A stretch of 64,000 nucleotides of DNA, from contig QMSP01000005.1 in NCBI GenBank assembly GCA_003650925.1, positions 1-64,000 on the forward strand. Direction: 5' to 3'. Shown here one piece after another: positions 53,192-56,445 of this stretch. Numbering within the stretch: position 1 is the stretch's first letter; every line of letters begins with the position of its first letter. This DNA is from Thermoprotei archaeon. GTDB lineage: Archaea > Thermoproteota > Thermoprotei > QMSL01. Position numbers and translations under genes: made by a program. The notes beneath the pieces are model-generated. The model was not told the origin of the DNA, ran no database searches, and saw only the letters and a program-made list of their open reading frames with translations.

Positions 53192-53953
53192 CTAAGTCAC
53201 CTCCACCTCCCTTTTTATAGCAAGGTACTTCTCTCTAAGGGCCTCCTTTTGCTTATTATATATCTCCTTTATGCCTCTCATTGCCAGCTCTAAGGCTTTT
53301 TCAAACTCCTCAAGGGTCATCAAGCCATCAGCCTGAAGCAACGTTATCTTGCCAAGGCTAGGCATCATAGCGACAGGCATATCTGCCTCCCCATATCGAT
53401 CCTCTAAGTCCATTGGATCTAGGACGAGCTGCCCTTCGACTTTGCCCACAGCTATAGCAGCTACTAGGTCCCTCATCGGTATGCCTGCGTCTGCGAGAGC
53501 GACGGCAGCTGCTGTTATTCCTGCACATCTAGTGCCGCCATCTGCTTGAATAACCTCTATGAAGACATCGATCGTCGTTCTGGGGAAGTACTCAAGGAAT
53601 ATGGCTGGCTCGAGAGCCTCTCTTATCACCTTTGAAAGCTCTATCTCCCTCCTTGTAGGAGCTGGAGATTTCCTCTCAAGGACTGAGAATGGAACCATGT
53701 GGTATCTACATCTTAAAATAGCTCTATCGGGCATGGCTAGGTGTCTGGGGTGTAGCTCTCTGGGCCCATAGACTGCAGCCATTATCTTGTTCCTTCCCTG
53801 TTCAAGATAACATGATCCATCTGCGTTCTTGAGTACGCCCACCTCTATCTTTATCCTCCTTAGCTCATCCACCTTTCTTCCATCAGCTCTACGTCCTTCT
53901 TCATCTATTAACCTAGGAGGCCTTTCTACCTTTCTTACTAGCTGAGACAACAT
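53192..53953 (-). CDS. rrp41: Exosome catalytic subunit Rrp41
   Basis: Phosphorolytic 3'-5' exoribonuclease and tailing enzyme. [27 protein letters not shown] at the N terminus, [52 protein letters not shown], and the catalytic Asp in [14 protein letters not shown] are all present. 253 residues. The 5' end overlaps rrp4 by 41 bases, with translation likely coupled. Confidence 0.97.
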
Positions 53954-54656
53954 TCCCCCTCCTGCTCTTCTCTCTTCTTATCATCTCCCTTATCCTATCG
54001 GTTAATCCTGACGTGTGAGCCTCAAGCTCTATTCTCTTTATAACACGGACTAATAACAGTTCATCCTCTGGATTCTCAGCATAAATCCATATCCTTCCAT
54101 TCTGCCCTACCAATATTTGACAATTTATCTCCTTTTTGATCATATTGATCATGGAGCCCTTCTTCCCTATGAGCCTAGGTATCTTGGCGGGTGATATCTC
54201 AACAACAGTTCCTCTATCTATCTTCCCACACTTAGGCTCCTTCGTTGACAGGAGTGGGTCTCTAGTCCTGTCAAAGGCTATTATCTTAGCTACGAGGAAA
54301 TCTCCTACATCAAAGTACTTAGTAAGATCCTCTCTTGTGGTATCTATAACCTTATTGAAGGCATCACTTACCTGTAGTATCGCTGAGTAGGGCGAGGCTA
54401 TGTCGACTGTCCAATGGGATATGCCTACATCTATGACTTTGCCTATGACAATATCCCCTACCTTTGGCACATAGCAGCATTTCAGAGGGATGACATGGAT
54501 GGCTCTATCCTTAAGCTCAGCAAGACCTATGATGCTGGAGTATATGGCATTTCCCACCTTGTACACGTTACTTCCCAGTTGATATGGCCCCTTAGCTAAA
54601 AGCTGTCCTGGAACTACGATCTCTCTTTGAGTGAAGTACACTGCCACTGTGGTCAC
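53913..54656 (-). CDS. rrp4: Exosome cap subunit Rrp4
   Basis: RNA-binding cap protein of 247 residues. It has the N-terminal domain ([19 protein letters not shown]), an S1 domain ([30 protein letters not shown]) and a KH domain with [14 protein letters not shown] as the G-x-x-G loop. The basic C terminus ([18 protein letters not shown]) extends beyond usual Rrp4. The ATG overlaps the SBDS stop by four bases. Confidence 0.96.
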
Positions 54657-55351
54657 CTCATACTCAATATTCTGATCTCTCCTTCTCCTTTTGTAAGCTG
54701 ATTAACCTTCTCTATCAGTATAGGTCTCATACCTGCTGGAATCTCTAGCTCTGCCATCCAGCTACCATCAGGAAGCCATGCCTGCCTCGTTATAGTTCCC
54801 ATTCTACTCAAGACACCATAGGCTCTTCCCACATAAGCTGCTGGAATCTTAACGGCTATGAGTGCTCTGGCTATCTTGATGGGTAGTATTCGCTGAAGAG
54901 CTTTGATTATATTCATGGCCTGTTCTTCAGCTGGCTTGAAAGGGTCGATCCCAACTTTTGCCTCCTCTAGAGCACTTTCTATCCTTGATGGAGGATGAGG
55001 ATGTCCAGTTCGTGGGTCTATGCAGTTTCTAGATATGAATTCTATTATTTGTCTTCTCTTAGCCTCTATCATTCTCCTACGCTGCTCTGCAGTAAGCTGG
55101 ATCTCACCCTTCCTCAGGATCTGCTCAGCAACCTTGTAGGGATCAGTAGTTCCAAAAACCTTCATCAATGTCTCCTCTGAAGCTCTAAGCCCTTTCTTGG
55201 CATCCTTATATATTACGTCATAGACAAGAACCTTCCTCAAGTCCTTTTCTTTTCCTTCTCTAAACCTCCAGGCAGCCTCGGGCTCAACTATGATCTCGAA
55301 CCTTTCACCATGACTTGAATACCTCGCTATTACATACTTGCCTCTCTCCAA
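54653..55351 (-). CDS. sdo1: Ribosome maturation protein Sdo1/SBDS
   Basis: The 232-residue archaeal orthologue of the Shwachman-Bodian-Diamond protein, involved in releasing eIF6 from the 60S subunit. Domain [32 protein letters not shown]; domain [36 protein letters not shown]; and the [17 protein letters not shown] segment ([14 protein letters not shown]), followed by a ferredoxin-like domain III. Located between psmA and rrp4 as in many archaea. Confidence 0.96.
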
Positions 55352-55362
55352 GAGCGCTCACC

Positions 55363-56114
55363 TCAGGTCTTGAATTTCTTGTATTCCTCTATATACTTCG
55401 CTATTTCCTCCTTGGTTAGCTTTCTAAACTTGCCTTCAGCTACAGTTGCAATGCCCATTTCAATTTTCTCAGCATCTATTCCTCCTTCCATGACTTTCTC
55501 TAGAGCTTTCAGGGCAAGAAAGATAGCCTCCTTGAAGCTTATCTCCTTCTTATACTCCTTCTCTAGAAACTCCCTCACTGTGGCCTCCCCTGCCCCGATC
55601 ACATGTGCATAGTACTTCCTATAGGCTCCCCATGGGTCAGTGCCAAATAGCTCAGGACCATTGAAGTCTATGCCGCCTATTATGAAGGCTACTCCAAAGG
55701 GTCTAACTCCTGCATGCTGAGTGTATATTTGCTTAAGATCGCAGATCCTCCTCGTCAAGGTTTCTACGGATATGGGCTCATCGTATACCAGCCTGTTTAT
55801 TTGAGCCTCGACTCTAGCCCTATCTATGAGCACCCTTGCATCAGAGGGAATTCCTGAGAACACTAGGCCTATGTGCTCATCTATTTGATAAATCTTATCC
55901 ACAGGCTCCATGAGAGGTGAGAATTCCTTCCTCTCCGCAATAAGCACTACACCTTCAGAACATCTAATGCCCACTGCAGTAAGGCCTTTCCTCACAGCCT
56001 CTGCTGCGTATTCTACTTGATATAATCTCCCATCTGGCGAGAAGATCGTTATGGCCCTTTTACGGCCGCTCCTGAGGAGCGGCTATCGTAGCCCATACTG
56101 GGTGGAGTGAACAT
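55363..56114 (-). CDS. psmA: 20S proteasome alpha subunit, two exons interrupted by a 26-base BHB intron
   Basis: Structural alpha-ring subunit of the proteasome. Exon 1 (56085-56114) encodes ten residues MFTPPSMGYD after GAGGTGAT; exon 2 (55363-56058) continues RAITIFSPDGRLYQVEYAAEA and gives a normal alpha subunit of 241 residues with KGTTAVG-like RKGLTAVGIRC. The joined YDR triad is the conserved gate motif (Tyr8-Asp9-Arg10 in other archaea). Read straight through, the frame stops after 21 residues (in-frame TAA within exon 2), and the remaining frame would have to begin at a GTG inside the conserved N-terminal helix. The intron fold and exact joining are described in the intron entry. This is the first gene of the superoperon continuing through exosome genes. 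Confidence 0.9.
56059..56084 (-). other. Predicted pre-mRNA intron of psmA with bulge-helix-bulge structure
   Basis: Minus strand. Central helix TACG (56087-56090) pairs with CGTA (56061-56064). The 5' bulge is ATA (56084-56086), the 3' bulge AAA (56058-56060). The inner hairpin is GCCGCTCC (56076-56083), loop TCA, GGAGCGGC (56065-56072). The outer helix has C91-G57, a small internal loop, then five pairs TATGG with CCATA (56050-56054 with 56093-56097). Cutting after the second base of each bulge, as splicing endonuclease does, removes 56059-56084 (26 bases) and joins GAT to AGG (Asp-Arg) between codons. Confidence 0.85.
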
Positions 56115-56445
56115 GTTCATCACCTCATAGCCTTTAGAGCACCCCCTCACATAAATATCATGAATAGTATATAAAGGTAGTCTAAGCTTCGAGCACCTTG
56201 AGGAGCCCTCTATAGAAGCCTGCTTCATAATAGATGAGAAGAAGATCTCACCTTGGCTCTAACGTAATCATGTCTTTTTACAAGCTGAATGTACTCATCA
56301 TAGCTTGTCCACTTTCTGTCATTCCTATGTAGTGACTAATTAAGAGCTTATTGCTGGTCTTTCTCCTGAACTAGGTTTCCATGGTCTTGGCAGTGGAAAT
56401 GGATTGGATAGCCAGAAAGCATCTCATGAATAAGACTATTAGCTG
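56115..56445. other. Intergenic stretch with the psmA promoter
   Basis: Minus-strand TTTATATA at 56168-56175 fits a TATA box and predicts transcription from about 56146, giving a leader near 30 bases that ends in GAGGTGAT overlapping an ATG at 56120; ATG 56114 is the properly spaced start. The remaining 56180-56445 shows no gene or repeat that I can support. Confidence 0.6.

Follow-up and report, generated by a model that had tools for sequence, protein, structure and literature searches.

The question raised by this locus is how the alpha subunit of the 20S proteasome is produced from a gene (psmA) whose reading frame is broken within the YDR motif, a part of the alpha-ring gate of the proteasome. 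The analyzed window, i.e., the whole stretch of 64,000 nt, corresponds to positions 1-64,000 of contig QMSP01000005.1 of Thermoprotei archaeon GCA_003650925.1 and carries psmA on the minus strand. The motif is interrupted between Asp and Arg by 26 bases (56059-56084), and the original prediction, which had placed this split between GYD and RAIT, was correct in sequence and coordinates. These 26 bases very probably constitute an archaeal pre-mRNA intron of the bulge-helix-bulge (BHB) type, which would be cut out by the splicing endonuclease (EndA); ligation would then restore the YDR motif, and synthesis of the alpha subunit would depend on splicing.

Structure of the psmA locus

The coordinates of the distinguished features are summarized in Table 1. 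Exon 2 opens with AGG GCC ATA ACG ATC TTC (RAITIF), and the removal of the 26 bases generates a single 241-aa PsmA protein with the sequence GYD-RAITIFSPDG across the joint. If the 26 bases are retained, the frame read to its stop codon encodes only MFTPPSMGYDSRSSGAAVKGP; both the restoration of GYD-RAIT and the 21-residue length of this unspliced product had been anticipated. The dinucleotide AG is present at both borders of the insertion, so there are three adjacent excision registers that give one identical protein, only one of which falls within both bulges. In each of the four genomes of the order, a purine-rich, Shine-Dalgarno-like stretch (GAGGTG or GGAGG) lies ahead of the exon 1 ATG, the relatives having kept exon 1 as MF(T)PPSMGYD or MFTPSMGYD; a second in-frame ATG lies near exon 1 (56118-56120). 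The two downstream neighbors encode SBDS and Rrp4, which is the exosome superoperon arrangement familiar for archaeal psmA.

Table 1. Features of the psmA locus and of the predicted BHB structure (positions in the window).
Feature	Position	Strand	Basis or comment
Shine-Dalgarno-like sequence GAGGTG	56121..56126	-	6 nt upstream of the psmA ATG; from sequence
psmA exon 1, ATGTTCACTCCACCCAGTATGGGCTACGAT (MFTPPSMGYD)	56085..56114	-	sequence; start ATG at 56114
central helix, 5' strand TACG (in exon 1)	56087..56090	-	paired in four of four sequences (one U-G)
5' bulge ATA; predicted cut 56085/56084	56084..56086	-	invariant in four genomes
predicted BHB intron (26 nt), AGCCGCTCCTCAGGAGCGGCCGTAAA	56059..56084	-	at one site in all four genomes; length 25-26 nt; hairpin with covariation
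inner hairpin: GCCGCTCC (56083-56076), loop TCA (56075-56073), GGAGCGGC (56072-56065)	56065..56083	-
central helix, 3' strand CGTA (in intron)	56061..56064	-	sequence and four-sequence comparison
3' bulge, AAA (AAAGG with the outer helix closing later); predicted cut 56059/56058	56056..56060	-
psmA exon 2, RAITIFSPDG... to stop	55363..56058	-	frame, domain and structure alignments
SBDS/SDO1 gene, downstream neighbor	54653..55351	-	Pfam
exosome subunit Rrp4 gene, downstream neighbor	53913..54656	-	Pfam

Three genes of the proteasome family were identified in the genome, i.e., this alpha gene and two beta-like genes; an intact psmA was looked for elsewhere, and none was found in this genome, which is 98.6% complete. 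The Pfam search with exon 2 alone revealed the Proteasome domain without Proteasome_A_N, the N-terminal signature of alpha-type subunits, while in the joined exons Proteasome_A_N is complete from its first to its last position. Moreover, alignments with structurally characterized archaeal alpha subunits run directly through the joint.

Folding and conservation of the insertion

The sequence contains, as originally described, the 4-bp TACG/CGTA central helix, the bulge ATA and a fully paired inner hairpin of 8 bp. The claim of 3-nt bulges on both strands holds for the 5' side (ATA) and has to be modified for the 3' side: a 3-nt bulge there would require an outer helix starting from G56057, but only the pair C56091-G56057 is formed, followed by a mismatch, whereas the comparison of four sequences permits 2-3 outer pairs closing a 5-nt bulge. 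In place of a strict BHB motif (3-nt bulges on both sides and an outer helix), psmA thus has one with a weak outer helix, relaxed on that side. Since relaxed forms are common in cbf5 (PMC2738675), this is compatible with membership among the BHB pre-mRNA introns. With a plain energy model, the preferred pairing next to the central helix differs slightly from this one.

Compact BHB cores are common by chance, with 20 in the window (both strands) compared with 7 per strand in a Markov simulation, i.e., about chance level, in addition to 111 looser matches. The motif by itself is therefore weak evidence, and its significance was dropped as an argument in its own right. What is not due to chance is the exact fit of the BHB core to the frame break, repeated in four diverged genomes.

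These four genomes, i.e., the one analyzed here, AUK163, AUK080 and B3_G16, make up the sample of the order, and all of them are draft assemblies of uncultured organisms, those of the relatives being derived from metagenomes. In the three relatives, similarity to psmA (tblastn) ends upstream of RAIT, and an insertion occupies the identical joint: AGTCATCCCTAAGGGGTGACCGTAAG (26 nt), AGCCACTCTTAAGAGTGGCCGTAAG (25 nt) and AGCCACCCGTAAGGGTGGCCGTGAG (25 nt), which gives lengths of 26, 26, 25 and 25 nt in the four genomes. Each of the four sequences contains the 4-bp central helix, the opposite-strand bulges 3' of each helix strand and the intron-side helix, and cuts placed behind the second bulge base on either side yield GAT-AGG or GAT-AGA, which brings Asp-Arg back in every case. 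Four of the 12 pairs are altered on both sides, all four within the eight pairs of the inner hairpin, and 97.9% of the cells are paired compared with 33-50% in slid controls, this covariation being drawn from four sequences. A covariance model of the psmA intron (12 genomes) gave high scores for psmA copies only. The PsmA proteins of the four genomes share 74-90% amino acid identity (dN 0.07-0.19), and the synonymous distance is too saturated to be computed in five of the six comparisons; the shared intron is thus not a consequence of recent common ancestry. In three genomes a TAA codon in the hairpin loop terminates the exon 1 frame, and in the fourth a stop codon occurs shortly into exon 2, so unspliced messages would give only short peptides. 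In our view, it is this comparative evidence that is decisive for regarding the psmA insertion as real.

Three other explanations of the broken frame were considered. Since the assemblies are drafts, the gene might be dead or misassembled, or else translation might start inside exon 2, where a GTG codon (55993-55995) opens a 210-aa frame with the whole Proteasome domain, to give an N-terminally shortened alpha subunit. An error is difficult to reconcile with an insertion that is shared by assemblies of separate organisms and differs among them in sequence and length, and a dead gene with the purifying selection acting on exon 2 of the only psmA of a nearly complete genome; the shortened protein would lack Proteasome_A_N, against which also speaks the ribosome-binding-like site of exon 1 and its retained MGYD in all four genomes. 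We consider this group of explanations very improbable. Still less credit can be given to programmed ribosomal frameshifting through the insert, which would place approximately 8 extra residues within the YDR motif. The exon 2 frame of the analyzed genome is indeed open from the TAG at the exon 1 border through the insertion, but the needed shift differs among the relatives (inserts of 26 and 25 nt), so that no single direction serves them all, and in three genomes the TAA in the loop would end the exon 1 frame. Furthermore, these residues would divide the motif, which is uninterrupted in every other archaeal relative read, and frameshifting has no need of a conserved BHB-like pairing with bulges. 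A hairpin together with a short non-coding gap within a frame also recalls ribosome hopping of the T4 gene 60 type, which requires matching take-off and landing codons. The take-off codon GAT is faced here by the landing codons AAA, AAG, AAG and GAG, and this mismatch makes hopping the least plausible of the three, with a probability close to negligible.

Splicing machinery and the cbf5 intron as a control

The reading of the insertion as an EndA-type pre-mRNA intron is strengthened, beyond the shared site and the compensatory changes, by the gene content of the genome. Two EndA paralogs are encoded (contig C1, 110463-110720, and contig C63, 4182-4439). One of them aligns with a solved archaeal EndA and retains the motifs that contain His and Lys, while the other is devoid of the His; a gene for RtcB is also present. 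The two-subunit EndA resembles the heteromeric enzymes of crenarchaea, for which relaxed motifs are acceptable substrates (PMC2738675), and it is predicted to be able to take relaxed or non-tRNA substrates.

From the anatomy of the locus, its conservation and covariation, the frame logic and these machinery genes we infer splicing by the following route. In the transcript, the intron would pair with the TACG of exon 1 to form the BHB core, a putative EndA substrate; the heteromeric enzyme would cut both bulges behind their second base; ligation of GAT to AGG (predicted joint: ...GGCTACGAT to AGGGCCATAACG) by RtcB or a different ligase would produce the Tyr-Asp-Arg of the alpha N-terminus; and the intron would be released, probably as a small circle. 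Because the unspliced message gives only a 21-residue peptide, alpha-subunit synthesis, and hence the 20S proteasome, would depend on splicing.

The cbf5 gene of this genome carries a 22-base intron at GTLD/PKVSG (contig C6, 34972-34993; locus L071) with a full BHB motif and a 4-bp outer helix, and its counterparts in AUK163 and B3_G16 are of 19 and 20 bases, respectively. One cutting rule fits these three cbf5 introns and the psmA introns. The known cbf5 intron was therefore recovered by means equal to those by which the psmA intron was found, and serves as a positive control. The cbf5 matches are also split in four other genomes of the class (G006, G009, G042 and G048), which suggests a further spread of putative cbf5 introns; the other genomes tested match across the site, two (AUK080 and G030) having been left out of the tally since the gene was incomplete or not found. 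The occurrence of the cbf5 intron in this order widens its known range past Sulfolobales and Desulfurococcales.

When sampled stretches of this genome amounting to 467 kb were scanned and subjected to frame tests, both psmA and cbf5 were recovered. The 19 other candidates for mRNA introns, 18 of them read as spliced proteins, were rejected after inspection by eye as chance joins or ordinary gene ends or starts. Two long tRNA genes were detected with ARAGORN, encoding tRNA-Cys (93 nt; locus L082, 6960-7052) and tRNA-Pro (92 nt; locus L083, 3185-3276), which probably hold introns of about 15-18 nt.

Relation to known introns and occurrence in other archaea

The established archaeal pre-mRNA intron, known since 2002, is that of cbf5. 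In 2009, no archaeal protein gene besides cbf5 had confirmed splicing, though others were predicted (PMC2738675), and a review from 2016 describes archaeal pre-mRNA introns as confined to Cbf5 homologs (PMC4810243). No paper linking proteasome genes with BHB introns was found in the searched literature, which consisted mostly of sources outside subscription journals, in agreement with the original prediction, whose author knew of no reported psmA case. The kind of intron is thus already known from cbf5, and the psmA case, with splicing predicted from sequence, is new to the searchable literature.

The cbf5 introns of Desulfurococcales and Sulfolobales (PMC2738675) and the psmA introns have several features in common: they (i) are short BHB-like introns in protein genes, (ii) co-occur with a heteromeric EndA, (iii) commonly have a relaxed motif, with the cut (predicted for psmA) following the second bulge base, and (iv) are each placed in a conserved protein motif. 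The psmA case differs in the gene, in the order of Thermoprotei and in the position of the insertion near the start codon, as well as in the kind of evidence, since splicing has been shown experimentally for some cbf5 introns (PMC2738675) and is deduced from sequence for psmA. The cleavage motif, and presumably the enzymes, are the same as for archaeal tRNA and rRNA introns; unlike those, the host here is a messenger RNA, so that splicing would have to compete with translation and to restore the frame. Putative 12-bp insertions in protein genes of the virus SIRV1 (cited in PMC2738675) are likewise predicted archaeal intron-like elements, but they vary rapidly, whereas the psmA insertion is conserved and shows covariation.

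If true, a conserved, covarying psmA intron would mean that a second, single-copy core gene depends on EndA splicing over long evolutionary times. It also raises a testable question of splicing versus translation, as the intron is located only 30 bases downstream of the start codon. Gene callers misplace the starts of such genes, so more introns may be hidden.

The three other genomes of the order thus share the insertion, and none was found at the psmA site in the rest of the class, among the genomes read. The motif is contiguous in 52 of the 54 other loci read, the exceptions being one Helarchaeota locus and one Hodarchaeum with the variant YDRGST, and in the phylum sample the checked matches, among the matches listed, indicated no further psmA case. 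Late-starting psmA genes in three genomes of one family (f24) and in two further genomes (G350 and G362) were ruled out as intron cases, YDRAIT being contiguous in them. Those of two genomes of one genus (G071, contig C10, locus L070; G072, contig C3, locus L069) were also ruled out; they have in common a 1-nt deletion directly after AITIF (ATTCAGCCAGAGG) that breaks the frame and may be either a sequencing error common to both or a genuine site of frameshifting.

In Candidatus Helarchaeota Hel_GB_A (SUPS01000269.1; locus L052, 255-297), psmA is interrupted two codons after the intron site of the window by 31 bases located between GATCGCGCAA and TTACACAA. This insert can be folded into a BHB core (GCGC/GCGC, 3-base bulges AAA and AAT, and at most 9 inner-helix pairs, including two G-U), and its excision by the same cutting rule restores GYDRAITQFSPDG. 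No comparable break was found at this site in 96 relatives searched, among the matches listed. As it is known from a single draft contig, where direct repeats mark its ends, we treat this candidate psmA BHB intron as a lead and not as a finding. It is conceivable, though in our opinion rather unlikely, that the gate motif of psmA is a recurrent BHB landing site, occupied on at least two occasions (once in this order of Thermoprotei and once, two codons on, in a Helarchaeota), and that in this order splicing of the first gene of the exosome superoperon is a control point through which the supply of proteasome and exosome is coupled to tRNA-splicing capacity. The same Helarchaeota genome contains a second alpha-type gene (contig C277, 189-881; locus L120), whose product is 63% identical to the first and has a divergent N-terminus (MNREQGYDLSITSFSPEG); two alpha-type matches are also present in many Asgard genomes.
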